Shown here piece after piece: positions 4,406 to 58,956 of a stretch of 64,000 nt of DNA. This DNA is from Enterococcus hulanensis (GTDB lineage: Bacteria > Bacillota > Bacilli > Lactobacillales > Enterococcaceae). A model generated the notes under the pieces. The model had not been told where the DNA came from and did not search any database. It saw only the letters and a list, made by a program, of their open reading frames with translations. The stretch is from positions 186,001 to 250,000 of the forward strand of contig NZ_BJED01000003.1 of assembly GCF_005405485.1 (NCBI RefSeq), written 5' to 3'. Both the position numbers and the translations under genes were made by a program. Each line of letters opens with the position of its first letter. The first letter of the stretch is position 1.

Positions 4406-4410
4406 AATGA

Positions 4411-4702: not shown

Positions 4703-4704
4703 TT

Positions 4705-5316
4705 TTATTTGCCTACTTCAAATTTTTCGCCGGTCTTCGCGTCTTCGTCCAAGGCTAGAATCCCTCTTTTTTCTGGGGCATTTGGCAGGTGTAATTCTTT
4801 GGCTGAGCAGATCATGCCGAAGCTGTCTACTCCGCGTAAGCTGCCGGGCCAAATCATTTGACCGTCTGGCATCATCGCACCTGGTTTTGCTACAACGACT
4901 TTTTGTCCGGCTTCGATATTTGGTGCACCGCAAACGATTTGCAGCGTCTTGCCGTCATCGATCTCTACTTCGGTAATATGCAGATGATCGGAATCAGGAT
5001 GATCGACACAAGTCTTCACATAGCCCACCACAAATTTTGGTGAAAGGTCCGCTGCTAGACGTTCTTCAAATCCTGCCAGCTTTAATTGTTCGTTTAAGGT
5101 TTCGATATCTTTTTCTGACAGCTCGACTTGTCCATTGCCTTGGATATTCAAGTATTCGGATACGTTGAAAAAGTTCCAAGCAACAGTCGTACCATCAGTC
5201 GTTTGAACGCGGGCAACTGCCCCTTTTCGTTCTGCAGCATTTTCTTTGTTTTCATCATTTTTGACGATCACCATTAACGTGTCGCCAACAGTTTGTTTGT
5301 TATACGCAAAAATCAC
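4705..5316 (-). CDS. ytpR: YtpR-like tRNA-binding (EMAP/OB-fold) protein
   Basis: This 203-residue protein resembles B. subtilis YtpR: an N-terminal DUF4479-type domain and a C-terminal OB-fold tRNA-binding domain like the N-terminus of the PheRS beta chain. The C-terminal half shows the fold's hallmarks (VGYVKTCVDHPDSDHLHITEV, IVCGAPNIEAGQKVVVA, GMICSAKELHL). Its role in the cell is not settled. I chose the GTG at 5316 because TGGAGG sits seven bases upstream and YtpR proteins begin in the same way; the upstream in-frame ATG would add 13 unlikely residues. It is transcribed alone with its own terminator. Confidence 0.9.
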   Translation of the reverse strand: MIFAYNKQTVGDTLMVIVKNDENKENAAERKGAVARVQTTDGTTVAWNFFNVSEYLNIQGNGQVELSEKDIETLNEQLKLAGFEERLAADLSPKFVVGYVKTCVDHPDSDHLHITEVEIDDGKTLQIVCGAPNIEAGQKVVVAKPGAMMPDGQMIWPGSLRGVDSFGMICSAKELHLPNAPEKRGILALDEDAKTGEKFEVGK

Positions 5317-5420
5317 GTTTTTACCTCCAGTCGTAGTCCTCTCGTATCTTAACAAATCTAATGGGCCTTGTGCATGAGATTTTTTTCATTTCCAGCTTAT
5401 CACTCAGTTCCCATTTTTCT

Positions 5421-5449
5421 CCAAATAAAAAGCTGGTCAAGCCAGCTTT
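5421..5449 (-). terminator. Terminator after the universal stress gene
   Basis: An 8-bp stem (AAAGCTGG with CCAGCTTT) overlaps the stop codon and is followed on the minus strand by TTTTTATTT. Confidence 0.75.
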
Positions 5450-5904
5450 TATTCGGCACTTGGATGAACGATTAAAACATCGCACAACGCTTCTTTAATC
5501 ACATAGCTGGCAACACTGCCGGTCATGAAGCGTTCGACAGCATTTAGTCCAGATTGTCCGACCATGACTAGATCGATGTCGTATTTTTCAGGCAAGGTCT
5601 TTGCCATCGCTTCTTTTGCCGAGCCATAGGCGATGATGCCTTCGATCTTGTTATAGCCAAGCTCTTTTCCGATCGCTTTGCATTGATTGATCAAGTCTTT
5701 AGCGTCTGCCGCTAGCTGATCCATAATGTTTTCATTCAAGGGCGAATAGCTCATGAACGTATAGATCTGATGATCGATCACGTTTGCGACGTAAACTGTT
5801 CCGTGGTTTCGTTTAGCAACCGCCAAGGCTTTTTTGAAGGCCTCCATCGCTTGATCGCTGCCGTCGATCCCAACTAAAATATTTTGATATGATTGTGTGA
5901 ACAT
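5449..5904 (-). CDS. Universal stress protein, UspA family (ATP-binding type)
   Basis: This 151-residue single-domain Usp begins with the strand ILVGIDGSDQAMEAF. Near the C-terminus it has the ATP-binding signature G-2X-G-9X-G-S (GQSGLNAVERFMTGS), which marks the nucleotide-binding MJ0577-like branch. Such proteins are cytosolic and dimeric and support stress survival; the client is unknown. AGGAG precedes the ATG. It starts nine bases after the thioredoxin-like gene stops, so the two are probably one operon with redox or general-stress roles. Confidence 0.95.
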   Translation of the reverse strand: MFTQSYQNILVGIDGSDQAMEAFKKALAVAKRNHGTVYVANVIDHQIYTFMSYSPLNENIMDQLAADAKDLINQCKAIGKELGYNKIEGIIAYGSAKEAMAKTLPEKYDIDLVMVGQSGLNAVERFMTGSVASYVIKEALCDVLIVHPSAE

Positions 5905-40844: not shown

Positions 40845-41337
40845 TTTTATCCATCCAATCTTTAAATTTATGATCTTTTTTATCTCCACACTTATTCCAT
40901 CCGAATACGAATATTGGATGAAATAACTATCCGTTACTCTAATAGAACCCAAGGAATAATCATGTCTATAAAAAATTATATGATAATCAATAAAATATTA
41001 ACTACTTTATTCATGAACAGTAAAATAATCACCTGAGCGTCATTCCAAACAAAAAAAACAGACGTTTATGATGCATAAACGTCTGTTTTTTTCTATATCA
41101 TTTTAAATTATCTTTAATTCATCATTATATTAAACATTAACATTTAAATTATTTTAAATAGAAATCATCTATATTTAATCACGAGATCATTTCATGGGAT
41201 TCAACAGTTATTTTCACATGATTTGTATACTCTTCTTAACCCAATTGTTATATAATAAGTATGTCGACTTATTAATTATTGCTGACATTTTTTTCGAAAT
41301 AATTTATTAACCTAATAACAAAAGGAAATATCCACAT
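40845..41337. other. Divergent control region of pilus operon and two-component system
   Basis: For the pilus operon, TATAAT at 40975-40980 (minus) has a poor -35 (AGTTAA), which suggests an activator. For the kinase gene, TATAAT at 41251-41256 (plus) is likely the -10. A strong terminator-like hairpin sits between them at 41058-41086. I found no convincing pair of LytTR direct repeats by eye. Confidence 0.5.
41058..41086. terminator. Bidirectional hairpin inside a divergent promoter region
   Basis: A perfect 12-bp stem (ACAGACGTTTAT with ATAAACGTCTGT) with a 5-base loop has A8 before and T7 after it. Its placement between divergent genes is unusual; it could block stray transcription toward either gene. 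Confidence 0.8.
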
Positions 41338-44545: not shown

Positions 44546-44705
44546 TGTGTCCATCCTCTCTGAAAAAACATTTTTTCTTACCTATAGAAGTATAGACTAT
44601 TTTGTTGATAAAAAAAATCCCCAGCCCTTAGAATCGCACTCCGCAGTTCTCGCTTGACCCAACAGACCTTTCTTCGTATGCTTATTTTTGAAGGAGGGTT
44701 CCTAT

Positions 44706-46154
44706 ATGTACTCGATGCTGAAAAAAATCATTACCGAAAAGGATATTTATCGTCAGATTTTACTCTTGGAACAGCTTCTTAATCATTCACAATTAACCGC
44801 CAAAGAGCTGGCCGAAAAAATCGGAACCACCGAGCGCACCATTTTTTCAGATTTGCAGCTGATTCGTACTTATCTGCCGCAACATTGGGAGTTGGACTCT
44901 GACAAAAGCGGCATCCGCTTGATTGCTCAGGAAAAGGCGTTGACCAATGATATCTGGGAAACCTTTTTACCCCATTCAGTCAGTCTGCAATTAATCAAAC
45001 AATTATTTTTTACCAAGGAATTAAACGTTCCTCGTTTTCTTGATGAAACAGGTGTCTCCTATGAAACGCTCAAACGGCAGCGCACAAAAATCAATCACCA
45101 GCTGCAGCTTTTTAACATCAAGATCCATCTAACCTCTACACGCGCCCATTTGATCGGCGAAGAAAGTGCCATCCGAATTTTTTATCATCGGCTGCTGCTG
45201 CCCTTTACTCATAACAATTACTTTTTTGAGGACTATACGATCCACGAAGAACATTATCTACGCTTCTTAACAAAAGAAATCACCGATGAGTTGTTTGTGG
45301 ATACGGAACAGATTTTTGGAATCTGCTGGTTCTTTATCAATAGTATCCGCATCAAGGCCGGTTGTCCCATCGATGACTTCAGCTTTGAAGCCAGCGATCC
45401 CTTATTCAATATTTACGCACCGCTGTTAAAGGACCTATACAAAAAAGAAGGCGTCTATCTGCAAGACGAAGAAATCTTTTTTGCCTTTTTCTGCTTTTTA
45501 GAAAGCTGGAACTACAATAATCCTTTAGGAAAAAAAGTCGCCGATGTATTAGCTGAAGGATATCCCTTGCTGCGAAAAAAAGCGCAGCAAACCATTCAAG
45601 AAATCGCCGGCGAGCTGTTGTTGCCGTCGTTACTTCAAACAAACCTGCTGACAAATATTTTGCTGCTGCTGTTAAAATACGCCGAATCACCGGCGCTGTC
45701 GAAGCAATTTCAATTAGAATATCAAGAACTGCTGCTGCAAAGAAATGAAACTTACGCGATCTTAACCGAAAAAAGCACGGAGCTTTTTAATAGTCTGCCG
45801 CAATTTTCTGCGATCGGAGATACGACTTATTTCGTTAATCTCTTTTCACTATTAAGCCAGCAGGCCATTTTCATGATCCGACCTTATACGAAAACGATCT
45901 TCTTTGTTTTCCAAAGTGAACCCGCTTGGAAAATCTTCCTGCAGCAGGAGCTGGCGGATCTTTTGGGCAAACGAGTCAACTTAGTTTCACTGGAAGTTTC
46001 TCAGCTGCAAACTGGAAGACTTCAAAGCGGTGATTTGATCCTTTCCAATATTCCGCTGGATTCGATGCCGATCCCGGTGGTCTACATTTCCACCATCCCA
46101 ACAAAAAATGAGCTCAGCCAATTGACTGAACTCACTTCTCATTCGTATCTTTAG
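44706..46154 (+). CDS. Mga-type transcriptional regulator
   Basis: This 482-residue protein has an N-terminal winged helix-turn-helix (LTAKELAEKIGTTERTIFSDLQLI), a second Mga-type HTH (VSYETLKRQRTKINHQL), a PRD-like helical middle and a C-terminal EIIB-like part. Its length and layout match the Mga/AtxA class of global regulators, including enterococcal MafR. AAGGAGGG seven bases before ATG 44706 decides the start; the TTG at 44688 overlaps the binding site. Its targets are not evident; the divergent aldo-keto reductase is the nearest candidate. Confidence 0.88.
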   Translation: MYSMLKKIITEKDIYRQILLLEQLLNHSQLTAKELAEKIGTTERTIFSDLQLIRTYLPQHWELDSDKSGIRLIAQEKALTNDIWETFLPHSVSLQLIKQLFFTKELNVPRFLDETGVSYETLKRQRTKINHQLQLFNIKIHLTSTRAHLIGEESAIRIFYHRLLLPFTHNNYFFEDYTIHEEHYLRFLTKEITDELFVDTEQIFGICWFFINSIRIKAGCPIDDFSFEASDPLFNIYAPLLKDLYKKEGVYLQDEEIFFAFFCFLESWNYNNPLGKKVADVLAEGYPLLRKKAQQTIQEIAGELLLPSLLQTNLLTNILLLLLKYAESPALSKQFQLEYQELLLQRNETYAILTEKSTELFNSLPQFSAIGDTTYFVNLFSLLSQQAIFMIRPYTKTIFFVFQSEPAWKIFLQQELADLLGKRVNLVSLEVSQLQTGRLQSGDLILSNIPLDSMPIPVVYISTIPTKNELSQLTELTSHSYL

Positions 46155-46160
46155 ATGGAA

Positions 46161-46189
46161 CGGTTAGTCATTTTGGTAATGGCTAACCG
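46161..46189 (+). terminator. Terminator of the Mga-type regulator gene
   Basis: The stem CGGTTAGTCATT pairs with AATGGCTAACCG with one wobble, followed by CTTTTTCTTTTTTT. It overlaps the end of the convergent ATPase gene. Confidence 0.85.
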
Positions 46190-48716
46190 CTTTTTCTTTT
46201 TTTCGAAAAATCCCTTTACTGATTCTTTTCTCGATCTCAACTACGAAGAACAGCAGCAGCGCATTGCCTAAAATCACTAATTGTTGTGTGAAGCTAAGTG
46301 CCGTTGTTCCAATCAACTGCTGGCCTAATGGTAAGAAGACAACACCTAGTTGAAGAACAAAGAGGATTCCTAATGAAATAAACAAGAATTTATTTTCGAA
46401 GAAGCGGCGGTTGATCGCCGGATCGACCATCTCACGACAATTGATCATATAAACCGCCTGTCCTAAAACAATACTCTGTAAAAGAATCGTCTGCTGCAAC
46501 GCCGCACCATCAAAACGCATTGATAAGAAGTACGCCGGAATCATGATCAGCAAGGAAACATACAAGATCCTGAAGAAGCTGTAGCCGGATAAAATCCCCA
46601 TCTTTGTATCTCTCGGCGGACGAGTCATTGTATCGGCACTCGCCTTTTCAAAGCCTAATGCATAAGAGAGTGTGATCGTCGTCACCATGTTGACCCACAA
46701 AATTTGGATCGGTGTTAATGGTAATGGACGGTTCATCAACAGAGCCAAGATTACGATCAACCCTTGTGCTAGTGCTGTTGGTAAAAAGAAATTGATCGTC
46801 TTTTGCAGATTATCAAAGATTCTGCGGCCTTCCTTCACGGCTTTTACGATCGTGTAAAAATTATCATCGGCTAATACCATATCCGCCGCTTGTTTACTTA
46901 CCTCACTGCCTTTGATCCCCATTGCGATCCCAATATCAGCCTGCTTCAAGGCTGGTGCATCATTCACGCCATCACCTGTCATTCCCACGACTTCTTCTTT
47001 TTTCTGCAACGCCGTCACGATTCTCAGCTTATGATCTGGCGTCGTACGAGCAAAGACATCTACTTGCCCCACCGCTTCAGCCAATTCTTCATCAGACATG
47101 CCATCAATATCGGCACCTTCTAAAATTTTAGACGTGTGCTTCAACCCAATCTGCTCACTGATTGCTTGAGCCGTGGCTTTGTGATCGCCGGTGATCATTT
47201 TAACCGCGATCCCTGCCTGCTGTGCCTGCTCAACCGCTCGAATGGCGCTCTCTTTCGGCGGATCAATGATTCCTGCTAAGCCGGCAAAGGTTAATCCAGA
47301 TAATGACTCATGGGTTAATTCTGTTGAAGAGACTTTTTTATATCCGAAGCCTAGTACCCGCTGACCTTTACTAGCAAGCTCCAGTCCGCGCTGCTCCCAC
47401 TTAAGCTGTTCTTCATTTGTTAAGCCAGCTTTTTCCAATAATACTTCCGGTGCACCTTTTACAAAAATTATCTGATTTTCGCCATCCGCGTGCAGCGTCG
47501 CCATATATTTGTAACTAGAGCTGAAGGGGATCTTCGCTAATACTGGCTTTAACTGCTGCTCTTCTTCGGCTACATAATTCAACAATGCCAGCTCTGTCGG
47601 ATTGCCATGAATCTCTTCGATTTTTTGCTCATCTTTAGTCTTTAACTCTTGGCAGTTATTCATTATTTCTTTAACTAATGAAAGCTCTTCTGTGACAACT
47701 TCCTGCACGGCCATCTCATTTTTCGTGAGAGTTCCTGTTTTATCCGAGCAGATCACCGTCATTGAGCCTAGCGTTTCTACCGCGGGCATTCCTTTGATGA
47801 TCGCATTCTCATCCGCCATTTCTTTGACACCCATCGAAAGGATCATTGTCAACACAGCCGGCAAGCCTTCTGGAATCATCGCAACGATCAAGGCAATACT
47901 CGCAGAGAACATCAAACTCCAGTCCATTCCATATCTAAAGCTCGTAAAGAATAGTAAGAAGACGATTAAGGCTAGAATGCCTCTAAAAATTTGTTTATTT
48001 AATTGATGCATTTTTTTAACCAGCGGTGTCGTCTGCGCTTGGATCGATTGCAAGGCATGATTGATTTTGCCGATTTCCGTCGCATCTCCTGTTTCAACGA
48101 CCAATCCGCGAGCCGAACCCGTTTGTACGAGTGTGCCTGAAAAAGCCATATTTAACTGATCCCCAGCCATAGCATCCTGTGAGATCGCTTCGACCGTTTT
48201 TTCAACTGCCTCAGATTCCCCAGTCAAGATTGACTCCTCCACTGTCAAATCATGTACTTCGATCAGACGCAGATCGGCTGGGATAACATCGCCAGCCTTT
48301 AAGATCACCACATCGCCCCGAACCAGTTTTTCTGAATCCAGCTTCAACGGCTGTCCTTCGTTTAAGACTGTCGCCTCTTGACCCATCATTTGCTTCAAGC
48401 CATCCAATGACTCTTCCGCCTTACGCTCTTGCCAATATCCCACGAAGCCGTTGACGATCACGACTAGGAAAATAATTCCGCCTTCCACCGCTTCGCCTGT
48501 CGCGAACTTCAGCAAGGCTGCCACGATCAAAACGATCATCAGCAGATCCGTAAAGTGCTTGGCGATTTTCCGCCATAGCTTGACTTGCTCTTTCTCCTCC
48601 ATTTTATTCGGTCCATTATTTTTTAACCGCGCCTCACGTTCTTCTGTCGTTAAACCTGTGATTTGCGACTCGACTTTATTTAAAACCGCTTCACTTGATT
48701 GTTTATACCATTTCAT
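46164..48716 (-). CDS. Ca2+-type P-type ATPase (PacL/SERCA-like)
   Basis: This 850-residue P2A-type pump exports Ca2+ (possibly Mn2+) using ATP. It has the N-terminal cation ATPase domain, the TGES actuator loop (LTGESEAV), the M4 motif MIPEGLPAVL, the phosphorylation site DKTGTLTKNEM (about residue 324), nucleotide-binding KGAPEVLL, and the hinge TGDGVNDAPALKQADIG. About ten membrane helices are visible. There is no heavy-metal-binding domain. It is transcribed alone. Confidence 0.95.
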   Translation of the reverse strand: MKWYKQSSEAVLNKVESQITGLTTEEREARLKNNGPNKMEEKEQVKLWRKIAKHFTDLLMIVLIVAALLKFATGEAVEGGIIFLVVIVNGFVGYWQERKAEESLDGLKQMMGQEATVLNEGQPLKLDSEKLVRGDVVILKAGDVIPADLRLIEVHDLTVEESILTGESEAVEKTVEAISQDAMAGDQLNMAFSGTLVQTGSARGLVVETGDATEIGKINHALQSIQAQTTPLVKKMHQLNKQIFRGILALIVFLLFFTSFRYGMDWSLMFSASIALIVAMIPEGLPAVLTMILSMGVKEMADENAIIKGMPAVETLGSMTVICSDKTGTLTKNEMAVQEVVTEELSLVKEIMNNCQELKTKDEQKIEEIHGNPTELALLNYVAEEEQQLKPVLAKIPFSSSYKYMATLHADGENQIIFVKGAPEVLLEKAGLTNEEQLKWEQRGLELASKGQRVLGFGYKKVSSTELTHESLSGLTFAGLAGIIDPPKESAIRAVEQAQQAGIAVKMITGDHKATAQAISEQIGLKHTSKILEGADIDGMSDEELAEAVGQVDVFARTTPDHKLRIVTALQKKEEVVGMTGDGVNDAPALKQADIGIAMGIKGSEVSKQAADMVLADDNFYTIVKAVKEGRRIFDNLQKTINFFLPTALAQGLIVILALLMNRPLPLTPIQILWVNMVTTITLSYALGFEKASADTMTRPPRDTKMGILSGYSFFRILYVSLLIMIPAYFLSMRFDGAALQQTILLQSIVLGQAVYMINCREMVDPAINRRFFENKFLFISLGILFVLQLGVVFLPLGQQLIGTTALSFTQQLVILGNALLLFFVVEIEKRISKGIFRKKEKAVSHYQND

Positions 48717-48830
48717 CTATGTATTCCTCCATGTCATTCATTTGATACCTTAAGTATACGGAGAAATCCCATTTTTTAAGGTCGATAATTTCATGGAAGA
48801 CTGCAATTATTGTGTTTAAGCAAATAAAAA

Positions 48831-48868
48831 AAGCAGCCCCGCTTCAATAATATGAAGTAGAACTGCTT
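48831..48868 (-). terminator. Terminator of the 42-residue peptide gene
   Basis: The paired segments AAGCAG / CTGCTT and GCTTCA / TGAAG form an interrupted stem, with TTTTTTT after it on the minus strand. Confidence 0.75.
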
Positions 48869-48882
48869 ACGATTAGATCAGA

Positions 48883-49011
48883 TTAATGTAAAAAGTTTTG
48901 CAGATCATCGCCGTATTCGTCGATTTTCTTCGTTGTCAAAATTGTTCCCGCTACTAAAACGCCGCTTACGATAAGTGTACTAGCAACCATAAATTTAACT
49001 AGTGATTTCAT
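48883..49011 (-). CDS. 42-residue single-helix membrane or secreted peptide
   Basis: This short gene encodes a peptide starting MKSLVKFMVASTLIVSGVLV and ending DLQNFLH. It has a very strong binding site (AGGAGGGG, six bases from the ATG) and its own terminator, so it is likely expressed. It has one hydrophobic helix and a short charged tail (TTKKIDEYGDDLQ). It could be a small membrane protein or, less likely, a type I toxin; no antisense partner was seen. I recognise no family. Confidence 0.65.
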   Translation of the reverse strand: MKSLVKFMVASTLIVSGVLVAGTILTTKKIDEYGDDLQNFLH

Positions 49012-49206
49012 GCGATTCCCCTCCTATGATTTTTAATTATTAATGAAAACGAAACAGCTATAACTAGATTGCTGCCTCAGTTATTGTATGTATTAACCAT
49101 AGCACAAGTAATTCTATGTATCTCCTAATATGCTCATTCCGGTCATTCATTCTTGAAAATGCAAAAATCACTCAATTGCTTTTATTAACCATACAACAAA
49201 AAATAT

Positions 49207-49857
49207 TCAGTACCTTTTTTTAGCGTATTCTAGTTGTTGATTGAACGCGATGATTCGATCTCTCAACCCCATCATCTCATCATCCAATAGATGCGCTTTA
49301 TCCGAACAGATGCGCAGCTCATTGATTAATGCTGGATCTTTGTTGTCGCTCTTATATTTCAATTCATGCTCTAAGCTCGCCCAAAAGTCCATGGCCGCAG
49401 TACGAAGCTGCACTTCCACCACAACATTTTTCTTCATGTTAGATAAAAATACTGGCAATTGAACGATCAGATGCAAACTGCGGTAGCCGTTTGTCTTTGG
49501 ATGTTTAATAAAGTCTTTTTCATTTACCAAGACCACATCATCTTGTCCAAGAAACATTTCTCTGATGCGGTAGACATCATCGATATAAGAACAAATCACT
49601 CGAACACCGGCTCCATCAAAAACATTCGATAAAATATCATCCAAGCTTATCGAAATTCCTTTTCTTTCGCATTTCTTATAAATCGATGTACTTGTCTTTA
49701 CTCTTGAACTAACTCCCTGAATCGATGAGCGTTCGTTTTTCATTAATAGCTCAGAAAAAAGAATTTGGAATTTTGTTTCACATTCCTTCATGGCACATTC
49801 ATAAAAAAACTGTGCCTGTTGTATTTCTTTTTGCTGAGATGAATGAAGCTCGTTCAT
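49207..49857 (-). CDS. Small alarmone synthetase, RelA/SpoT domain
   Basis: This 216-residue protein consists of a (p)ppGpp synthetase domain with a C-terminal helix, as in RelQ/RelP. Visible motifs are the ATP-site RVKTSTSIYKK (Arg52, Lys54), the metal-site Asp in DGAGVRVICSYIDDVY, the GTP-site NGYRSLHLIV and the catalytic-site VVEVQLRTAAMDFWASLEHEL. There is no hydrolase domain. It makes (p)ppGpp from GTP or GDP and ATP. GGGAG before ATG 49857 decides the start; the frame is open 15 residues further up. It is the last gene of the six-gene minus-strand operon, an unusual setting. Confidence 0.9.
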   Translation of the reverse strand: MNELHSSQQKEIQQAQFFYECAMKECETKFQILFSELLMKNERSSIQGVSSRVKTSTSIYKKCERKGISISLDDILSNVFDGAGVRVICSYIDDVYRIREMFLGQDDVVLVNEKDFIKHPKTNGYRSLHLIVQLPVFLSNMKKNVVVEVQLRTAAMDFWASLEHELKYKSDNKDPALINELRICSDKAHLLDDEMMGLRDRIIAFNQQLEYAKKRY

Positions 49858-49908
49858 TTTTCTCCCGCCATTCATAAAATTTATAGTACAACTATTAACC
49901 ATTTTTAT

Positions 49909-50085
49909 TTATAAGCTGAAAAATAAATGAACAGAGGAAAGAATGATCAAGAAAAGAGAGAGCAGGACAAAAAATAGGGACAGCATTAACTGATCTGTTG
50001 CAGAAAATTTTTTTTTGCTCCGCCTAATGAGGATGAGAAAAAGTCCTCCGATACCTGCTAACAAAAAGGCGCTTAATGCAATCAT
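49909..50085 (-). CDS. 58-residue two-helix membrane peptide
   Basis: This short gene encodes MIALSAFLLAGIGGLFLIL, a basic loop RRSKKKFSATD and a second helix LMLSLFFVLLSLFLIILSS. GGAGGAATTGG directly before the ATG is a strong binding site. It lies 81 bp after the M20 peptidase gene and 51 bp before the alarmone synthetase on the same strand. The hairpin topology resembles small membrane regulators. No family is recognised. Confidence 0.7.
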   Translation of the reverse strand: MIALSAFLLAGIGGLFLILIRRSKKKFSATDQLMLSLFFVLLSLFLIILSSVHLFFSL

Positions 50086-50166
50086 CCAATTCCTCCTTCA
50101 CTCAATTCCTTCAGCTCTTTCAACTATTTATTGAAAACCTCTGTCCAAATTTTTTTCTTGCGGCAG

Positions 50167-51288
50167 CTATCCATTTTGAGGCGCCCTCTTTGTCAATTCA
50201 ATCACCAATTTGACGGCTTTCTCCATTTCTGCGATAGCTATGTATTCCTCTGTCGTGTGGATCTTTTCATATCCAACAGACAGATTGACGACTTCTTTTC
50301 CTTTTTCATTGAAGATATTTGCATCGCTTCCGCCTCCGCTGATCTCTTTAATCAAAGAAAGATCATGTTCAATCATTGCCTGATCCAAAATTTTCATTAT
50401 CACAGATTCATCAGAAATGTTGTATCCTGTAGCCATTTTCTCTACTGTCATTTCAAAGGAACCGCCATATTTTTCTACCGCTCCATTAAAGGCAGCTTCG
50501 ATCTCCTTCAGTAACTGCTCAGCGACTTCTGATAATACCGAACGAACTTCTCCTTTCAGCTTCAATGAGTCCATGATAATATTCGTCGCTTTTCCGCCGT
50601 CGATCATCCCGATATTTGACGTTGTCATCTCGTCAATTCGGCCTATATCGATCTTTTGTAAAGCATCCGATAAAATCGCAACAGCAGATATCCCTTTTTC
50701 CGGCTCTATACCTGAATGCGCCGATCGTCCGTTTACTTGAACCTCATACATGAATAAGGTCGGGCTGGCAATTGTCACGCGACCGACCTCTCCTCCGCTG
50801 TCTAAAACATAGCCGTTTTCTGCTTTGATCAGCTGCATATCCAAGGCTGAAGCACCAATTAATCCGATTTCTTCTCCTGGAGAAAAAACAAACTCCAAAT
50901 CACCGGTTGTAATCCCCTGTTCTTGAATCGTTTCAATTGCTTCGATGATAATCGCAATTCCCGCCTTGTCATCTGCACCTAAAATCGTTTCCCCTTTAGA
51001 AGACAAAATACCTGATTCTTCAATCACTTCAATACCCATTCCTGGCGACACGGTGTCTGTATGGCAGGAAAAGAAAAGAGGCAGTTTGTTGCGGTCTTTT
51101 CCATGATGTCTAACGATCAAATTGTTTGAACCTAATCCGGTAATTTCCTTGCTGGCATCTTCAACGATCTCCATTCCAAACTTCATAAATTTATTTTTTA
51201 AGTATGCATGAATTTCTCCTTCATTTCTCGATTCAGAATCAATCTGAACCAGTTCGATAAATGTTTTCACTAAACGGTTTGTATTCAT
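50167..51288 (-). CDS. M20 metallopeptidase, tripeptidase T-like
   Basis: This 373-residue di-zinc aminopeptidase is related to PepT and YqjE. Metal ligands and catalytic residues are seen in FFSCHTDTVSPG, GADDKAGIAI, FSPGEEIGLIGA and VLDSGG. The dimerisation domain includes NGRSAHSGIEPEKGISAV, and a late SGGGSDANIFNEKG holds conserved glycines. It should release N-terminal residues from short peptides in the cytosol. GGAGGAACAGCT before ATG 51288 sets the start. It follows the SepM-like gene by 25 bp in the operon. Confidence 0.9.
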   Translation of the reverse strand: MNTNRLVKTFIELVQIDSESRNEGEIHAYLKNKFMKFGMEIVEDASKEITGLGSNNLIVRHHGKDRNKLPLFFSCHTDTVSPGMGIEVIEESGILSSKGETILGADDKAGIAIIIEAIETIQEQGITTGDLEFVFSPGEEIGLIGASALDMQLIKAENGYVLDSGGEVGRVTIASPTLFMYEVQVNGRSAHSGIEPEKGISAVAILSDALQKIDIGRIDEMTTSNIGMIDGGKATNIIMDSLKLKGEVRSVLSEVAEQLLKEIEAAFNGAVEKYGGSFEMTVEKMATGYNISDESVIMKILDQAMIEHDLSLIKEISGGGSDANIFNEKGKEVVNLSVGYEKIHTTEEYIAIAEMEKAVKLVIELTKRAPQNG

Positions 51289-51313
51289 AGCTGTTCCTCC
51301 ATCAATTGTTTTC

Positions 51314-52309
51314 TTAAGCATGCACTTCCAAATATTCAATAATATCTGTCATATTCCCTACAGGTACCACCTTCATCTCAGTCTGAATATCAGCTGCCAC
51401 TTTTCTAGCCTCGAAATAGTTTGTTGAAAAAGTTCCTTCTTCATTTCCTAAATAAGGAACAAAGAAAATATCCGCTTGAGAATGATGTGCAGCATATACC
51501 TTCTGCGGGATTCCTCCGACAAGACCAACACTTCCATTTGCTTCTATCGTTCCTGTTCCAGCAACTGTCCTGCCATTCAGCAGGTCCTGTCCTGTGATCT
51601 GTTGATAGATACTTAACGTCAGCATCGCTCCAGCTGAGGGGCCGCCAAATCCTTTAGAATTTATGCGGATTGGTTCATTAGTAGTGACCGCCAGTACGCC
51701 GTTCAATAAATAGCCGCTTCTTGCCACTTGCGGGATAGATAGTTCCTGTTTTTTACCTTCTCGCGCAACGACAAGTTCGGTTTGCGCCGCCCTCAATTTT
51801 TGAGGAAGTTTGGCTAACGCATTAGGCGACACTTTTTCTCCATTTATTGAAAGGATAACGTCGTTTATTCTAAGTGATTCTAAAGCCTGGACATCTCGAT
51901 TGATATTCATTATTCGTATTCCAATAAACTCAAGCTCCTTCTCCTTTTCGGCAAGTCGAAAAGCTTCCGTAACTGCTGTTTGCTTGGAATTTGCCATAAA
52001 AGCCTGCTGAACATCTCTGCTATCTTGTCTTACTGTTTCATAATTCTGAGTTTCTTTCGAGAAATTTTGATAGGGGTGGATCAGCGCTTTGATTAACGTA
52101 AATACCGTCCCCTGTTTTCGTTTGACCGTTGTTACCAAAATTTCTGAATCACTTTTTGGGGAGCTGTCTGCCACCGAGACCATTTCCATCGCATCTGCTA
52201 CTGGCCCCGGCTTGGTTATATATAAATCTGGAATTCTATAGAAAAACGCAAAGTAGATCACTGCAACACTCAACAAAGCAACCGCTAAATACTTACTAAA
52301 TCTCTTCAT
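51314..52309 (-). CDS. Membrane-anchored PDZ/Lon-like serine protease (SepM/YlbL type)
   Basis: This 331-residue protein has one N-terminal membrane helix (about 8-24), an extracytoplasmic PDZ domain (about 125-190, LRINDVILSINGEKV) and a Lon-type protease domain with the Ser225-Lys270 dyad in FGGPSAGAML and GGIPQKVYAAH. The streptococcal homologue SepM trims a secreted signal peptide; other family members have unknown clients. Its operon partners here are a peptidase and a transporter, not a peptide-pheromone system. AGAGG precedes ATG 52309. Confidence 0.88.
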   Translation of the reverse strand: MKRFSKYLAVALLSVAVIYFAFFYRIPDLYITKPGPVADAMEMVSVADSSPKSDSEILVTTVKRKQGTVFTLIKALIHPYQNFSKETQNYETVRQDSRDVQQAFMANSKQTAVTEAFRLAEKEKELEFIGIRIMNINRDVQALESLRINDVILSINGEKVSPNALAKLPQKLRAAQTELVVAREGKKQELSIPQVARSGYLLNGVLAVTTNEPIRINSKGFGGPSAGAMLTLSIYQQITGQDLLNGRTVAGTGTIEANGSVGLVGGIPQKVYAAHHSQADIFFVPYLGNEEGTFSTNYFEARKVAADIQTEMKVVPVGNMTDIIEYLEVHA

Positions 52310-52334
52310 AATCAACCTCTTTATTCATAAAAAA

Positions 52335-53540
52335 CTATCCTAGCATCAAACCAACAATTAACCCGCCGGTAATGACAGAAGTTATCGTTATCGTAGAAAA
52401 ACCTGCCGTTACCATAATCGGTAGAATATTCTGCTCAATAACAGCGATCTCTTCTTCTGTCTCCCCTACAGCTGCCGCAGCTTCTTTCGTTAGAACCATC
52501 GTCCCTGGGAAGCCAAAGAGTGTCGTCATTCCAACAGCGATAGATAAAGGACCCGAGTAACCGACCTTTTTACCAATAAGGAATGAAGCGATAAAGATAA
52601 TCGCCAAACCTGCTGCTAAGTAGAAAGCAATCGGTCCAATCAAATGCAAGAGATCCGCCGGAACAATATCTGCTAACGGTCCAAACGCGATAACCATGAT
52701 AGAAATCATTAGTAAGCCGAAAGAATCGGTTGAAGATAACGCATTAGGCTTCAAAATTCTGAAATGTCGCAAAACGATTCCCAGCAATAATGCAATCACA
52801 AAGGCATTCACCGTTCCATTAGTCAATTGACTTAAAAATCGAGATACGTACATTGTCAGCCCCAGTAAAAACAGTGTGCCGTATGGTGTCCGCAAAAATT
52901 CTGGTAAAATACTTTCCTTAGCCTCAGTTGTATTTTCAGCGACTTCCTGTTCAAAAAACGTCAGCTCACCATTGCGATATTGCTTCTTCACACGAAGCGC
53001 CTCTTTTTTCAAAATATTCGCCGTAAACAAGAAGCCGACTAGATTTTTTAAGTTTAGAATCAAGAGCGGGAAAACCGCTAATAAGTAACTAGATAAAATA
53101 CCTAAATCACCGCCAGCATTTTGAATCTCATTTACTTTCTCCTGCACCATTAAAATCGAAAGCGTCCCGCCAGTTATCGATGCCGTTCCAGCCACCGCAA
53201 TATTTCGATCAAAAATCAGCTCGCCAATGAAAATCAGTATTACCGTCATCAAAACAACAGTTAGAGAACCGATCACAAAAGTTCGCCATTGCAGCTTCAA
53301 ATCTTTAAAGCTCATCATCGTTCCTAAATGAACAATAATCACCCCGATGACCGCATTTCCTAAACCTAACAATCCCGAATCCTGAATCAAATCATGCGGC
53401 AGCAGATCCGTCGCAAAACCAACCAAAAAGATCAGAGATGCTACCAGCATCATCGATATCAAGGCCTTGCTTTTGTTTGAAACAAACTCTCCAATCGTCC
53501 AAATAAACATTACAATAGTAAAAGCTAATATAGGTTCCAT
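52335..53540 (-). CDS. Multi-pass membrane transporter-like protein, family uncertain
   Basis: This 401-residue protein has about ten or eleven hydrophobic segments in two halves joined by a charged loop (KKEALRVKKQYRNGEL to ESILPEFLRTP). Glycine-rich breaks GTASITGGTLSIL and TLFGFPGTMVLTKEA at similar points of each half suggest an inverted-repeat carrier, somewhat like sodium/glutamate (GltS) or related carriers. I cannot place it firmly. It lies between the YitT-like gene (15 bp) and the protease gene (25 bp), so an amino acid or peptide-derived substrate is plausible. Confidence 0.65.
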   Translation of the reverse strand: MEPILAFTIVMFIWTIGEFVSNKSKALISMMLVASLIFLVGFATDLLPHDLIQDSGLLGLGNAVIGVIIVHLGTMMSFKDLKLQWRTFVIGSLTVVLMTVILIFIGELIFDRNIAVAGTASITGGTLSILMVQEKVNEIQNAGGDLGILSSYLLAVFPLLILNLKNLVGFLFTANILKKEALRVKKQYRNGELTFFEQEVAENTTEAKESILPEFLRTPYGTLFLLGLTMYVSRFLSQLTNGTVNAFVIALLLGIVLRHFRILKPNALSSTDSFGLLMISIMVIAFGPLADIVPADLLHLIGPIAFYLAAGLAIIFIASFLIGKKVGYSGPLSIAVGMTTLFGFPGTMVLTKEAAAAVGETEEEIAVIEQNILPIMVTAGFSTITITSVITGGLIVGLMLG

Positions 53541-53555
53541 TATTTTTCCTCCTTA

Positions 53556-54479
53556 TTATTGAATCGGATGATACGTGAATCCCAAGCCGTGAACTTCCGC
53601 CACATTATATGTGATCATAAAGCTCTTAGGATCAATCTCATCTACGATTTTTCTAACCAACGGATATTCCTGCCCAGTCACCACTACCATGATCATTTCT
53701 CTATCACAATCATTTTTGCCGCCTCTAGCATCAAACACCGTCATTCCTCGATCGATTTCACTTGTTAATTGATCGCGAATTTCTTTTGTATTATCTTGAC
53801 TTATAATCATTACCGCTTTTCTTCTCTTCAATCCGTTCTCAATGTAGTTCATAACAATCGACGTAATCCCGATAGATAAGATAGCGAATAGAAACTCTTC
53901 AAAACCAAAAACATAAAGACTCATAAAAACTATCACCATATCTGTCAGTAATAATCCTAGCGATGGGTTCACACCAAAATATTTTTCAAAAATCAATGGC
54001 GGGATGGTCGTTCCGCCGCTAGAAGCTTGAATTTTATATAAAATGGCTACTCCAACCGCGAAAACGACACTCCCAAAAATAACAGATAATAATCGATCCT
54101 CAGTTAACATACCGATTGGTACGATACGTAACGCTAACGGAAATAGTAGACTTCCAATTAATGTATTAAAGAAAATCTTTTTTCCTAAGAATAAAGCGGC
54201 CAGAATTAAAACTATGACATTCAATGATAATACGACCCATGAACGATCGATACCCAAAGCTGATTCTGCTAAAATTCCAATCCCGCTAGCCCCTCCAGCG
54301 GCAATATCATGAGGTCCTAAAAATAGATTGATACTAATTGCTAGTAACAATACCGCTACTGATATTTTTAGCAGCTGCAATAAAAAAGAAAGAACAGTAC
54401 CGCTTTTCTTTTCTCTATTAATAATCGGCGTTCTTTTTTTCGCCCCTGTTTTTAAATTTAAAGTAACATTGTCTTTCAT
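53556..54479 (-). CDS. YitT-family membrane protein with DUF2179 domain
   Basis: This 307-residue protein has five or six membrane helices (about 35-210; NLFLGPHDIAAGGASGIGILAE is the family signature) and a C-terminal cytosolic DUF2179 domain (RRKAVMIISQDNTKEIRDQL, DREMIMVVVTGQEYPLVRKIV). YitT proteins are widespread in Firmicutes; their transport role is not established. GGGGGAAAGGG before ATG 54479 decides the start. It is the first gene of a six-gene operon, with the shared palindrome upstream. Confidence 0.9.
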   Translation of the reverse strand: MKDNVTLNLKTGAKKRTPIINREKKSGTVLSFLLQLLKISVAVLLLAISINLFLGPHDIAAGGASGIGILAESALGIDRSWVVLSLNVIVLILAALFLGKKIFFNTLIGSLLFPLALRIVPIGMLTEDRLLSVIFGSVVFAVGVAILYKIQASSGGTTIPPLIFEKYFGVNPSLGLLLTDMVIVFMSLYVFGFEEFLFAILSIGITSIVMNYIENGLKRRKAVMIISQDNTKEIRDQLTSEIDRGMTVFDARGGKNDCDREMIMVVVTGQEYPLVRKIVDEIDPKSFMITYNVAEVHGLGFTYHPIQ

Positions 54480-54548
54480 ACCCTTTCCCCCTTCGTGACG
54501 ACTCCTTAATGAGTATGGTGCTAGTTTAATAAAATAATAAAGAGCCCT

Positions 54549-54587
54549 CAAACAAACTATTTCTCAATATTAGAAATAATTTGTCTG
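54549..54587. promoter_or_regulatory. Shared palindromic element upstream of the YitT operon
   Basis: This is a 39-bp imperfect palindrome: left arm CAAACAAACTATTTCT, right arm AGAAATAATTTGTCTG. It matches a second copy before ldh at about 30 of 39 positions, with 14 of 16 in the right arm. It lies upstream of possible minus-strand -10 sequences (TATTAT 54534-54539 or TAAACT 54523-54528). It is probably an operator, likely for the Mga-type regulator at 55958. Confidence 0.65.
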
Positions 54588-54644
54588 AGAGCACTGCCGC
54601 TTTTTAAACATGTCGATCATTTATTATTTACCAGACGATTATGT

Positions 54645-54682
54645 AAAAAAGGACCTAAGAGAAAAGGGGATTCTCTTAGGCC
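54645..54682 (-). terminator. Terminator of ldh
   Basis: A perfect 10-bp stem (CCTAAGAGAA with TTCTCTTAGG) is followed on the minus strand by TCCTTTTTT. Confidence 0.88.
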
Positions 54683-54710
54683 ATATATTTTAACTATTTG
54701 GTTTATTGCA

Positions 54711-55652
54711 TCAGCTGTCACTCTCAAGTACGGTGTTCTGCATGTCTTTCAATGTTTGGATCGAAATCCGCATTTTCTCCATTTCATCTTCAGCTAGCGG
54801 TATTTCAATGATCTCCCGAATTCCTTCTCTATTTAAAACAGCGTTAGAACCAATACAAACATCTTCGCTATTATACTGACCCTCTAGATGAACTGAAACC
54901 GGAAGTACAGAATTTTCGTCCTGCAAAATTGCTTTTGTGATTCTTGCTAGTGAAATAGCAATCCCATAGTGAGTAGAGCCTTTGTAATGGATAATCTCAT
55001 AAGCAGCATTCTTCACATTTTCCGACAACTCAACTAAATCGGATTTCGAAAATTCAGGATGCTGATCCAACCATTCCGTAATCTTTAATCCCCCGATATT
55101 TCCATGGGACCAAACAGGAAACTGTGTATCTCCATGCTCGCCTAAAATATATATATTGACATCGCGTGGATCTATTTGAAATTTTTCACCTACCGCACTT
55201 CTTAATCGGGCACTGTCCAGAGAGGTTCCTGATCCAATAACTCTATTTGCAGGAAATCCAGTCAACTTCTTTACATAATGAGTAAGAACATCGACTGGAT
55301 TACTGGCAATTAGAAATATTCCAGTAAAATTATGTGCCATAACTGATTGAACAATCGACTTAATAATTCGTGCATTTCGCTTTACCAAATCCAGACGAGT
55401 TTCGTTTTCTTTTTGCGCTGCTCCAGCTGTGATGACTATTAGATCAGCATCAGAACAATCAGAATACTCCGCAGGATAAATACTTTTAGGTCCAACATAA
55501 GCCAAGCCGTTCGTAAGGTCTTTCACGTCGCCGGCAACCTTTTGAGAATCCAGATCAATAATGCCAACATTATTGCCAACTCCCTGTGCCATTAAAGCAA
55601 ACGTATAGCTTGAACCGACATCTCCATTACCGATAACTACAATTTTATTCAT
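54711..55652 (-). CDS. ldh: L-lactate dehydrogenase
   Basis: This 313-residue NAD-dependent enzyme interconverts pyruvate and L-lactate. The Rossmann motif is IGNGDVGSSY (Gly-x-Gly-x-x-Gly). The substrate loop AGAAQKENETRLDLV has Gln, which marks lactate rather than malate specificity. ASNPVDVLT, GSGTSLDSARLR and the catalytic His in ILGEHGDTQFPVWS are all present. The loop departs from the usual QKPGETR (here QKENETR), and it may be a secondary Ldh or a 2-hydroxyacid variant. It is monocistronic, with the shared palindrome upstream, and divergent from an Mga-type regulator. Confidence 0.92.
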   Translation of the reverse strand: MNKIVVIGNGDVGSSYTFALMAQGVGNNVGIIDLDSQKVAGDVKDLTNGLAYVGPKSIYPAEYSDCSDADLIVITAGAAQKENETRLDLVKRNARIIKSIVQSVMAHNFTGIFLIASNPVDVLTHYVKKLTGFPANRVIGSGTSLDSARLRSAVGEKFQIDPRDVNIYILGEHGDTQFPVWSHGNIGGLKITEWLDQHPEFSKSDLVELSENVKNAAYEIIHYKGSTHYGIAISLARITKAILQDENSVLPVSVHLEGQYNSEDVCIGSNAVLNREGIREIIEIPLAEDEMEKMRISIQTLKDMQNTVLESDS

Positions 55653-55776
55653 AAAAATTCTCCTTCTGACTCTCTTACTTATCTATTATCGAACTTCTCA
55701 TAATGACTTTCATAATTATTCAAGCAGCTTCAACGATAGATTGTATTGTAAGTTTAGTAAACAGAGATACTCTTCA

Positions 55777-55815
55777 CAAATAAAATAATTCCCAAAAATG
55801 GAAATACTTTGTCTG
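55777..55815. promoter_or_regulatory. Shared palindromic element upstream of ldh
   Basis: This second copy of the 39-bp element has right arm GGAAATACTTTGTCTG. Its centre lies about 48 bp from a likely minus-strand -10 of ldh (TACAAT at 55745-55750), and the -35 is poor. This geometry fits an activator. The right end also forms a local TTTGTCT/AGACAAA hairpin (55808-55827). Confidence 0.65.
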
Positions 55816-55957
55816 AAGCAAGACAAAAAAACTTGAGTACTTATAAATCAGCCAACAAAAAAATAATTTAATAATCCCAAGGCAAATGTTTTATTTAATA
55901 AGCCAGTTCGTATTATAATGTAAGCGCATTGAGACTTTTAGATAAGGGGTCCTTTCT

Positions 55958-57394
55958 ATGAATACTTATTCCTATGATTTGCTAGTCGATAAATCCATAA
56001 AAAGAAAAATCAAAATACTTCAAATATTACTTGAAGCCAATCGTCCGGTATCATTAAAAACTTTTAGCGACCTCTGTGATGTTTCTTACAAAACGATTCA
56101 ACAGGACATTGCCTACTTAATCGATAATTTGCCAAACACTCTGTTATTGGAAGAATTCAATCACACCTTATCCCTTGAAAATTATGGAACGAGTCGTGAA
56201 ATCATCACTTATATCGATAGCCTGATTTCTGATAATCCGATATTCCACATTATCGAATCAATTTTTTATGAAGAAAAAAAAGATTTAATCACTTACGCTT
56301 TAGACTTATACATTTCCGAATCTACAATGAAAAATTATATCAAAACCTTCCGTAAAGTTCTTAAGGATTTCAAGCTTGACCTCGATACCGCCAATTTCTC
56401 CTTGGTGGGGGATGAAGCAGATATTCGCTATTTCTTCTTCCAATATTTTCGCTCTATTCACGAAAGCAGCGCACCGATTATCCACAATGATCAATATCAT
56501 GAGATAACAGAAGTATTAGAAAAAATGAAAAAGGAATATGATCTAAATCTAAATTTCGACTACTACAGAGCGACAATCTGGATGTTCATCATAGAAAAAC
56601 GAATAGAAAACCACCACTTTATTAAATTTGATACCCCAATACTGGAAAAATATGAAAATAAAGATAGCTACCGTCGTTTTAAAACAGCCTTCTCCGCGTA
56701 TTTCCACCCGAAGATACTTAACGAAGACAAACGGAACCAAGAAGTTTTGTTTTCTTATTTTGCACAAGTCGATACCATTATTTATGAATCGAACAGCTCA
56801 TACTTAACCAACGACTTTATTCAAGAATTTACAGAGCAGGATTTGCTTATTACGAAATTCTTTATCGAATCAAAACAAAATTTGGTACTCAATCATAAAG
56901 CAAAATCAGCTATTCAATCCTATCTCACAAACCTGTCAATATTAACTGAATGTACAGACTTATTTCAAAAATATTCTCGCATTCTGATACGCAAGGCAAA
57001 AAACAATTACCCTGCTACTTTTTCCATTTGGTGCCGCATTTTAGAAAATCACAAATATTTTTCACAGATTGAAGATGTAGCGGCTAGATTGACCTTATTA
57101 TATGAGGTAAAAAAATATAACAAGAAAAAGGTGCTCTTTGCCTTAACTGGTGATTCTTCTTCCGTAAGTTACTACAAAGCCCTAGCAAAAAAAGTCATCC
57201 CAAATGACGTTGAATATCACTTTTTGTTCAATCGTCCCTTAACAAATGAATTGCTAAGTACGTTGCAGATTGATTTGTGTGTGTATAATTTTGAACCGCA
57301 GCTAAACCTGACTTCATCCGATCTTTATCGCTTATCTGACATTCCCTTAGATACTGAATGGCAAGAACTGCAAGACCTGCTTTTCAACATCTAA
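55958..57394 (+). CDS. Mga-type transcriptional regulator next to ldh
   Basis: This 478-residue protein has an N-terminal HTH (VSLKTFSDLCDVSYKTIQQDIAYLI), a second HTH (LYISESTMKNYIKTFRKVL), a PRD-like helical region and a C-terminal EIIB-like segment (KKVLFALTGDSSSVSYYKAL). It lacks a clear phospho-cysteine. TATAAT at 55914-55919 is its likely -10, and AAGGGG precedes the ATG. It is divergent from ldh and is the best candidate to bind the shared palindromes. It is a distant paralog of the regulator at 44706. Confidence 0.88.
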   Translation: MNTYSYDLLVDKSIKRKIKILQILLEANRPVSLKTFSDLCDVSYKTIQQDIAYLIDNLPNTLLLEEFNHTLSLENYGTSREIITYIDSLISDNPIFHIIESIFYEEKKDLITYALDLYISESTMKNYIKTFRKVLKDFKLDLDTANFSLVGDEADIRYFFFQYFRSIHESSAPIIHNDQYHEITEVLEKMKKEYDLNLNFDYYRATIWMFIIEKRIENHHFIKFDTPILEKYENKDSYRRFKTAFSAYFHPKILNEDKRNQEVLFSYFAQVDTIIYESNSSYLTNDFIQEFTEQDLLITKFFIESKQNLVLNHKAKSAIQSYLTNLSILTECTDLFQKYSRILIRKAKNNYPATFSIWCRILENHKYFSQIEDVAARLTLLYEVKKYNKKKVLFALTGDSSSVSYYKALAKKVIPNDVEYHFLFNRPLTNELLSTLQIDLCVYNFEPQLNLTSSDLYRLSDIPLDTEWQELQDLLFNI

Positions 57395-57404
57395 AGACAA
57401 AAAA

Positions 57405-57442
57405 TACCCCGTTGCTTTTATGTTCATTAAAGCAGCGGGGTA
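57405..57442. terminator. Bidirectional terminator
   Basis: The stem TACCCCGTTGCTTT pairs with AAAGCAGCGGGGTA with one mismatch and has A/T runs on both sides; it lies between convergent genes. Confidence 0.88.
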
Positions 57443-58956
57443 AAAAATTCACTTAATCGTTCCTTTACAACGGTCGCAACGTTCCTGTTCTTCTGTGTTT
57501 CGCTGCTTAAGCGTTTTGATTGACGAACATCCTCTTCAAACTGTGCTTGAATCTCACTAACCAAGGCGCTTGGACCATATAGAAATGCCGATATTTCATG
57601 ATTTAAATGAAAGCTTCTAATATCAAAATTGGTCGAGCCCACCGAGGCAACGAGACCATCTACAATCAAATATTTGCAATGCAAAAATGACTCTGAGTCA
57701 TACGCATAGACTTCAACTCCCGCAGACAGCAGCCGATCTATGAAGGAATTATTCCCGTAGTAAGAGATGGCACGGTCGCCTTTTCCCGGAATAATCAATT
57801 GCACCTTTAACCCGCATCGTGCTGCACGCCGAATAACCGATAAGGACTCCTCATCTGGTACAAAATATGGACTTGCTATCTGAATGGACCGTTCGGCTTT
57901 CCCAAACAACTCCATGATGGAGTCCCTTAGAATGCGCTCTGAATCATAGGGACCGCCAAAAATTATTTGACAGATGTCACTTCGTTCTCCAAAATACTCC
58001 TTTTCCAGCGGAAAATAGCTTTGCCGCGCATCAAAAAATGGCTGCAAAACTTGCTCATCTTCATTTAAGAAGAGCCAATCCAATAGAAATACATACTGTA
58101 AATAAATCGTACTAGGTCCTAAAATTCTTAAATTCGTATCACGCCAATACTTAAATTTGTCTGTTATACTTCGATATTCATTTCCTAAATTCATGCCGCC
58201 CATATGAGCAATTTGACCATCGATTATAACCATTTTACGATGGTTGCGCCAATTTATTCTGGTACTTAAAGAAGGAGAATTAACTAAATCATACGAGCGA
58301 ACCGAAATTCCGGCTTCTTTCAGTTTAGAGATAAATTCAAAGGGCAGCTTTATCGATCCTACACTATCATAAATAAATCTAACCTTTACCCCTTGTTTAG
58401 CCTTTGCTATTAAAACATCAGCTAACTCAAGACCTGTTTCGTCTGCTTTATAAATGAAATACATTAGATGAATATGATGCCTAGCGCTTTGAAGATCCTT
58501 TAATAATTCCTGATACGCTTTTTCACCATCCGCCAAATGTGTAATTCGATTTCCTTTTAGCGGTTCATTTCCAGAAAGATACGTCAGCTCTTTTGAGATA
58601 GAATAAGGCTCATTGATTATTTCCGAATGCTCATTTAATAATTGAGCCATATATTGGTGCAATAATTGTTCATTTCTTTTTTGTACCGAAGAAAAACGTC
58701 TAAAATTAGGCTTACTGCCTACTAAGAAAAAGAGTAAAATGCCGACATAAGGAAAAAATAAAATAGCAAATAGCCATGCGAATTTTGAAGTAGAAGATCG
58801 CTTATCAATAAAAACCAAATAGCCGCATAAGACAAAAGATACCGCCTCTACAAAAATCGTCAAAACAATCAAACTATCAAAAAACTGATACGCCGCAAAA
58901 CAAACACAAATAAATATCAAGCTGATGACCAACAAACGCTGTAATTTATTTTTCAT
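57427..58956 (-). CDS. cls: Cardiolipin synthase
   Basis: This 509-residue phospholipase D superfamily enzyme joins two phosphatidylglycerols into cardiolipin plus glycerol at the membrane. Two N-terminal membrane helices (about 8-55) are followed by two HKD motifs: NHRKMVIIDGQIAHMGGMN and LHCKYLIVDGLVASVGSTNFD. The C-terminal FFTPLL is typical. GAGAGGAG before ATG 58956 sets the start. It has its own terminator and no operon partners. Confidence 0.95.
   Translation of the reverse strand: MKNKLQRLLVISLIFICVCFAAYQFFDSLIVLTIFVEAVSFVLCGYLVFIDKRSSTSKFAWLFAILFFPYVGILLFFLVGSKPNFRRFSSVQKRNEQLLHQYMAQLLNEHSEIINEPYSISKELTYLSGNEPLKGNRITHLADGEKAYQELLKDLQSARHHIHLMYFIYKADETGLELADVLIAKAKQGVKVRFIYDSVGSIKLPFEFISKLKEAGISVRSYDLVNSPSLSTRINWRNHRKMVIIDGQIAHMGGMNLGNEYRSITDKFKYWRDTNLRILGPSTIYLQYVFLLDWLFLNEDEQVLQPFFDARQSYFPLEKEYFGERSDICQIIFGGPYDSERILRDSIMELFGKAERSIQIASPYFVPDEESLSVIRRAARCGLKVQLIIPGKGDRAISYYGNNSFIDRLLSAGVEVYAYDSESFLHCKYLIVDGLVASVGSTNFDIRSFHLNHEISAFLYGPSALVSEIQAQFEEDVRQSKRLSSETQKNRNVATVVKERLSEFFTPLL

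Follow-up and report, generated by a model that had tools for sequence, protein, structure and literature searches.

The window (the whole 64,000-nucleotide stretch of Enterococcus hulanensis DNA that was analyzed, positions 186001–250000 of contig C3 of a 4.74-Mb genome) contains on its minus strand a second lactate dehydrogenase gene, ldh, followed by six genes that begin with a YitT-family gene. A gene for a regulator of the Mga/AtxA type is divergent from ldh. The genes of the locus are as follows:

55958–57394, plus strand: 478-aa Mga/AtxA-type regulator, proposed binder of sites A and B (NCBIfam AcpB_EbpR_MafR; Pfam Mga and HTH_Mga)
54711–55652, minus strand: accessory second L-lactate dehydrogenase, ldh (TIGR01771, 387.1 bits)
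53556–54479, minus strand: YitT-family membrane protein with DUF2179 (Pfam), operon gene 1
52335–53540, minus strand: 401-aa helix-rich protein, probably a membrane transporter (role assigned by eye only)
51314–52315, minus strand: SepM-family S16 (Lon-like) protease with PDZ (NF041438, 200.8 bits, barely reaching the cut-off of 200)
50167–51294, minus strand: M20 peptidase, PepT-like (TIGR01883, 366.6 bits, cut-off 274.25)
49909–50085, minus strand: 58-aa hydrophobic ORF between the peptidase and synthetase genes, conserved in frame in E. avium
49207–49902, minus strand: small alarmone synthetase, start probably at about 49863

The ldh product is 55–57% identical to the main Ldh of the genus and has orthologs (93–100%) in three of 20 genus genomes, including its own. 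Orthologs of the YitT protein (83–93%) are present in E. avium, E. alishanensis and E. viikkiensis, and its next best matches are a 75% identical paralog in its own genome (contig C40) and a partial match of 69% in genome G007. The YitT start is likely the ATG at 54479, giving 307 aa as in E. avium; a longer ORF from the TTG at 54551 would overlap site A (see below) by 3 bases, so that with the start at 54479 site A lies outside the gene. Neither Pfam nor NCBIfam gave a match for the 401-aa protein at E 0.001, and its structure prediction was poor (pLDDT 46.6). The alarmone synthetase is nearer to the solved YwaC (157 bits) than to YjbM (120), scores below the YjbM equivalog cut-off (161 versus 320), and has orthologs (91–92%) only in E. 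avium and E. alishanensis among the 20 genus genomes; its identity is 32–36% with the genus-wide copy and 39% with an additional one in E. viikkiensis. The SepM-like protease is 28–31% identical to other genus copies. Judged from these identities, the cassette genes compared (Ldh, synthetase and protease) are extra, diverged copies. Simple scans of 49800–50250, upstream of the synthetase gene, revealed no promoter-like or terminator-like site, and the arrangement from YitT through the alarmone synthetase is consistent with one transcript; the number of six genes given for the operon in the first-pass annotation is correct if the 58-aa ORF is counted. A second YitT gene (75%), paired with a transporter gene, is located at about 2870–5563 of G000:C40 (L106) and is preceded by a stretch that by eye resembles a degenerate PepT-like gene. 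No palindrome was found on that contig (best match 17/26).

The regulator matches NF053736 (AcpB_EbpR_MafR) over residues 11–474 with 178.1 bits against a cut-off of 130 and is a full-length member of the family, in agreement with its initial description as a complete divergent Mga-type regulator. Its N-terminal part contains two helix-turn-helix domains (HTH_Mga, residues 12–62, and Mga, 86–164, each above its cut-off). The central PTS regulation domains (PRDs) and C-terminal EIIB-like domain expected in this family gave no separate Pfam match, and a profile match to 5way extends over residues 7–444; the predicted structure of the protein was poor (pLDDT 37.6). At E 0.001 the regulator matched only NF053736, and not the MafR equivalog model NF053735, which instead identifies the gene at 44688 as MafR (776 bits). 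In a plasmid collection the regulator had five matches, all below 60% identity. The MafR ortholog adjoins a calcium-type P-ATPase gene (44688–48716), and E. faecalis MafR is described as activating a calcium P-type ATPase gene (PMC6467988), so by analogy this pair may represent the same circuit.

Sequence and conservation of the two palindromes

Two related palindromes, sites A and B, are located upstream of the YitT operon and of ldh, respectively. The sites and the elements around them are:

54523–54528, minus strand: TAAACT, proposed -10 of the YitT operon, within the in-register TTYAYTAAACT common to both sites (10/11)
54546–54551, minus strand: TTGAGG, proposed -35 of the YitT operon, overlapping the end of site A
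54549–54587, minus strand: site A, proposed 39-bp palindromic operator upstream of the YitT operon (31/39 to site B)
54652–54682, minus strand: terminator-like hairpin 3' of ldh, separating ldh from site A
55751–55756, minus strand: TAAACT, proposed -10 of ldh, in the same register as at site A and absent at the same place in E. viikkiensis
55774–55779, minus strand: TTGTGA, proposed -35 of ldh, overlapping the end of site B
55777–55815, minus strand: site B, second palindrome copy and proposed operator, between ldh and the divergent regulator gene
55914–55919, plus strand: TATAAT, proposed -10 of the regulator gene, the same hexamer in 4/4 genomes (-35 candidates at most 3/6)
55918–55932, plus strand: weak cre-like box directly after the regulator -10, with one mismatch to the cre consensus

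Site A is composed of 15-bp arms and a 9-bp center, with pairing that reaches 54545–54591. When compared directly at these coordinates, sites A and B share 31 of 39 bases, slightly more than the approximately 30 first noted, and the arm ending TTTGTCTG is identical at 14 of 16 positions, as had been claimed. Among all 39-mers of the window on both strands, excluding the copies and their reverse complements, the next-best resemblance to either copy is 24/39. Comparison of the two intergenic regions gave a best 39-base match of 31, against a mean of 23.3 and a maximum of 27 in 500 dinucleotide shuffles and a maximum of 27 in 487 random pairs of window pieces.

The palindromy of site A (13 of 15 arm positions) was equaled in one of 500 shuffles, and that of site B (11 of 15) in 109 of 500, so the palindromy of site B on its own is unremarkable. 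One other palindrome in the window is better than site A and two are equal to it. Half-sites are not enriched in the window (19 found, 13.6 expected; 13 of 100 shuffles had as many), and with up to 2 mismatches the whole genome contained 106, compared with 90 for a reversed-pattern control; by themselves half-sites are uninformative. Therefore, the significance of the sites rests on their shared sequence and conservation. Of 30 half-site loci inspected in the genome, the three that belong to sites A and B had a second arm agreeing at 11–13 of 15 positions, compared with 8/15 or fewer for the 27 others. Eight natural copies of the site, six of them distinct, occur in four genomes. The proximal arm of site A, GAAATAGTTTGTTTG, is identical in all four, and the 12 half-sites of the six distinct sequences (the identical E. 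avium and E. alishanensis copies were entered once) give the majority sequence CARACAAANTATTTC, with 9 of 15 positions invariant. No Rfam match was obtained at the gathering score in 48000–58000. Elsewhere in the window, a perfect palindrome with 15-bp arms and A-run and T-run ends (41053–41091) is perhaps a bidirectional terminator.

Distribution and probable mobility of the locus

Pattern searches with a limit of 3 mismatches found the palindrome in four of 20 genus genomes and in four of 105 family genomes (which include the 20), at two places in each, with no hits for the reversed-pattern control. The site-bearing genomes are those of E. hulanensis (the window genome), E. avium ATCC 14025, E. 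alishanensis and E. viikkiensis. The first-pass annotation had asked about many unrelated copies and about conservation in relatives; the copies are restricted to two places per genome at this limit and are kept in the three relatives. In E. viikkiensis both sites are at the limit itself, with exactly 3 mismatches, and copies of greater divergence in other genomes would have escaped the search. A relaxed pattern applied to eight chosen genomes gave no convincing third site (single extra hits turned up in G016, at 3 mismatches, in G001 and in G005, and the reversed control gave one in G009). Orthologs of the regulator (89, 91 and 92% identical) occur in three genomes in addition to its own, i.e. 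in four of the 60 examined, a search that took in 37 of the 105 family genomes; at E 0.001 some match was obtained in 49 of these 60 genomes, and the hit that ranks directly after the orthologs by E-value is 23% identical. The sites and the regulator ortholog thus occur in the same four of 20 genus genomes. Since the four loci share ancestry, this co-occurrence counts for less than four independent events would.

The E. avium and E. alishanensis loci can be joined in one alignment of 8396 columns at 98.3% identity, which holds the regulator gene, ldh and the operon and extends from just past the E. avium cardiolipin synthase gene to just past the alarmone synthetase gene. The rest of the 19.9-kb stretches gave no further alignment at E 1e-5, i.e. 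the flanks are unrelated. At E 1e-100 among 20 genomes, a close ortholog of the flanking cardiolipin synthase gene is present only in E. hulanensis, E. avium and E. viikkiensis, and none was found in E. alishanensis. In the latter the block is bordered on one side by an IS21-type pair, consisting of IstB (PF01695) and a transposase-like partner, and on the other by an IS240-type transposase (PF13610), and is located on a 69.5-kb contig that also bears a topoisomerase gene; the block was not found in the plasmid collection. Its end coincides with the start of GGTTCTGTTGCAAAG (L063, 15895–15909), which we take to resemble an IS6-family terminal repeat.

The E. viikkiensis locus has the regulator, YitT and transporter genes and is devoid of ldh and the protease, peptidase and alarmone synthetase genes. 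At the threshold applied, a single Ldh match (57% identical) was found in this genome, and the closest synthetase and protease show 39 and 29% identity; all three are encoded at other loci. Comparison of its intergenic DNA with ldh gave only short chance-level matches (E 0.11 or worse). Nevertheless, E. viikkiensis keeps both sites, one beside YitT and one beside the regulator gene, as conserved stretches that stand out in diverged intergenic DNA. The earlier suggestion that this locus couples lactate or redox state to (p)ppGpp is unsupported: both sites are retained here in the absence of ldh, protease, peptidase and synthetase, and the searches made, which had other aims, gave no indication of a lactate or NADH sensor. 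The transporter gene in this species is divided into two ORFs (L064, 7550–8755) and may be decaying.

Proposed promoter elements and regulation

In E. hulanensis, each palindrome is located 20 nt from a TAAACT hexamer that forms part of TTYAYTAAACT, a motif found downstream of both palindromes at equal distance with an in-register match of 10 of 11 bases. This match was attained by 11 of 20000 single-base shuffles for the E. hulanensis sequences and by 5 of 20000 for those of E. avium. The register match is absent in E. viikkiensis, in which the best A/B match is 7/11, a value reached by 3214 of 20000 shuffles. TAAACT fits the -10 consensus at only four of six positions, and the proposed -35 hexamers (TTGAGG, TTGAGA or TTGTGA) fit at four to five; the E. 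hulanensis candidates fit at 4/6, which bears out the observation that each copy is located upstream of a minus-strand gene with a poor -35. The spacing between the two elements is 17 nt (18 nt at site A of E. viikkiensis). If TAAACT is the -10 element, the palindromes span about -71 to -33 by hand count. The TAAACT beside site B is missing in E. viikkiensis; its absence exactly where ldh is absent suits an ldh promoter element. The cre-like box that follows the regulator -10 was scored against a cre consensus, and has no mismatches in E. viikkiensis and two in each of E. avium and E. alishanensis. The same test gave 35 one-mismatch and three perfect matches in the 64-kb window. The box may indicate CcpA control of the regulator gene.

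We consider it probable that the divergent AcpB/EbpR/MafR-type regulator uses sites A and B as dyad-symmetric, sequence-specific operators, through which it would activate ldh and the YitT operon, and that, as part of the same reading, the regulator gene, ldh and the operon constitute one transferable cassette with a private two-operator regulon. A regulator dimer, with one protomer per 15-bp arm, would bind each site at about -71 to -33, overlap the weak -35 and recruit RNA polymerase to the weak -10 (TAAACT), so that ldh and the six-gene YitT operon would be switched on together. Site B probably has a further role at the promoter of the regulator gene itself (autoregulation), because it persists where ldh is absent. 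Among the relatives examined, the sites are present only where the regulator gene occurs, and they are thus most likely the binding sites of this neighboring regulator. Of the original proposal, control of ldh and the YitT operon by one regulator is very probably right in view of the same four of 20 genomes, the same register and the shared block, and the lactate or redox signal attached to it is unsupported. Protein binding, activation rather than repression, autoregulation and the nature of the signal are what we infer from these sequence comparisons. Looping between the two sites was also considered and rejected, as the distances between them (1228, 1342, 1338 and 400 bp) do not agree in helical phase when worked out by hand.

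Another factor borne on the cassette would show the same co-occurrence with the sites as the regulator, and the overlap with the -35 fits a repressor as well. In the latter case the same regulator, bound to the same sites over the proposed -35 elements, would block the polymerase until an inducer is present. We regard repression as unlikely, since the proposed promoters are weak, as activated promoters are, and since MafR and Mga, which are described as binding over the -35, are activators. It is quite improbable that the sites belong to a different factor, either MafR encoded at 44688 or a host global regulator. MafR belongs to the same family, its gene is nearby and its published sites overlap -35 elements; however, its reported sites are low in sequence identity, unlike A and B, and 12 of the 15 genus genomes (of 20) with a MafR match at E 1e-150 or better lack the sites. 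Conversely, no MafR match was found at this threshold in E. alishanensis, though both sites are present there. MafR was judged unlikely as the cognate regulator on this mismatch between its presence across the 20 genus genomes and that of the sites.

The palindromes could alternatively act as RNA hairpins, in which case site A would be an additional terminator, or an attenuator, in the ldh–YitT intergenic region. Site A does fold at -29.1 kcal/mol (z -8.87, with none of 200 shuffles as good), is followed by a T-rich stretch and was flagged as terminator-like. However, the folding of site B is less pronounced (z -2.30, equaled by 5 of 200 shuffles), there is no covariation (155 of 500 shuffles reach the pair score in an alignment of six distinct rows), ldh already has its own terminator-like hairpin, the T-rich tail is not conserved in E. 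avium, and the proposed start points are downstream of both sites. The hairpin was judged unlikely on the weaker folding of site B and on compensatory changes no more frequent than in shuffles, and we hold it to be very improbable; as read from the aligned copies, the conservation pattern is that of a DNA dyad and not of an RNA hairpin. Finally, the repeats are located within a block that moved between species, as two copies of a small mobile repeat devoid of a regulatory role would be, but each genome has them at only two places within the 3-mismatch limit, the relaxed pattern adds no convincing one, and both copies are in the same register to promoter-like elements, so that this reading has almost no likelihood in our view.

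Comparison with known Mga/AtxA-type regulators

The proposed activation of ldh and the YitT operon by the 478-aa regulator can be compared with four described systems. MafR of E. faecalis, from the same NCBIfam subfamily, is reported to activate one promoter at which it protects the -35 region, from -70 to -34 (PMC10773906, PMC6467988). MafR is a global regulator with sites reported as being of low sequence identity, in contrast to the two strict palindromes per genome found here. For Mga of Streptococcus pyogenes, most sites are placed around -54, overlapping the -35 (PMC6467988); Mga is capable of activating its own gene, and the sites that it has at emm and scpA are described as resembling one another among strains (PMC8560693). 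It differs in its virulence regulon and in the poor conservation reported for its other sites. The closest parallel in the searched literature is VipR of Bacillus thuringiensis, an AtxA/Mga-like protein: a palindrome common to vip3A and vipR is located directly upstream of a promoter that lacks a canonical -35, it ends 29 bp upstream of the start of the target, and its disruption strongly lowers activation (PMC9430311). VipR is autoregulated, with a related palindrome, reported as 16 bp, at its own promoter (PMC9430311). The VipR palindrome is shorter and serves other genes, and it is likened to sites A and B by its published description, not by sequence. For RofA of S. pyogenes, a consensus was derived from two sites within a single intergenic region and was not found upstream of other RofA-regulated genes (PMC8560693); the excerpted account mentions no palindrome. 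By analogy, a promoter geometry like that of MafR, Mga and VipR favors activation by the local regulator. The Mga/AtxA family is described as PTS-regulated, MafR being reported to lack conserved histidines (PMC8560693, PMC9430311); a PTS-type signal for the present regulator would be extrapolated from this family habit only.

The top results of our literature searches included no published work on this cassette. The transferable unit delivers second copies of an LDH and an alarmone synthetase along with their likely regulator. As a tentative and somewhat doubtful extension, the cassette may bring together spare genes of housekeeping type (for an LDH, an alarmone synthetase, a YitT protein, a SepM-like protease and a PepT-like peptidase), an Mga/AtxA-type regulator of its own, and a palindromic operator that is private to it and strictly sequence-specific. 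It would give a recipient enterococcus a self-contained regulatory layer over fermentation, peptide processing and (p)ppGpp, with base readout in a family thought to read mainly DNA shape. The literature on Mga/AtxA regulators mostly describes low-identity sites and suggests shape readout, with VipR, RofA and the emm/scpA sites as exceptions. Sites A and B are likely a further exception, and their eight natural copies allow recognition of sequence and of shape to be tested directly.
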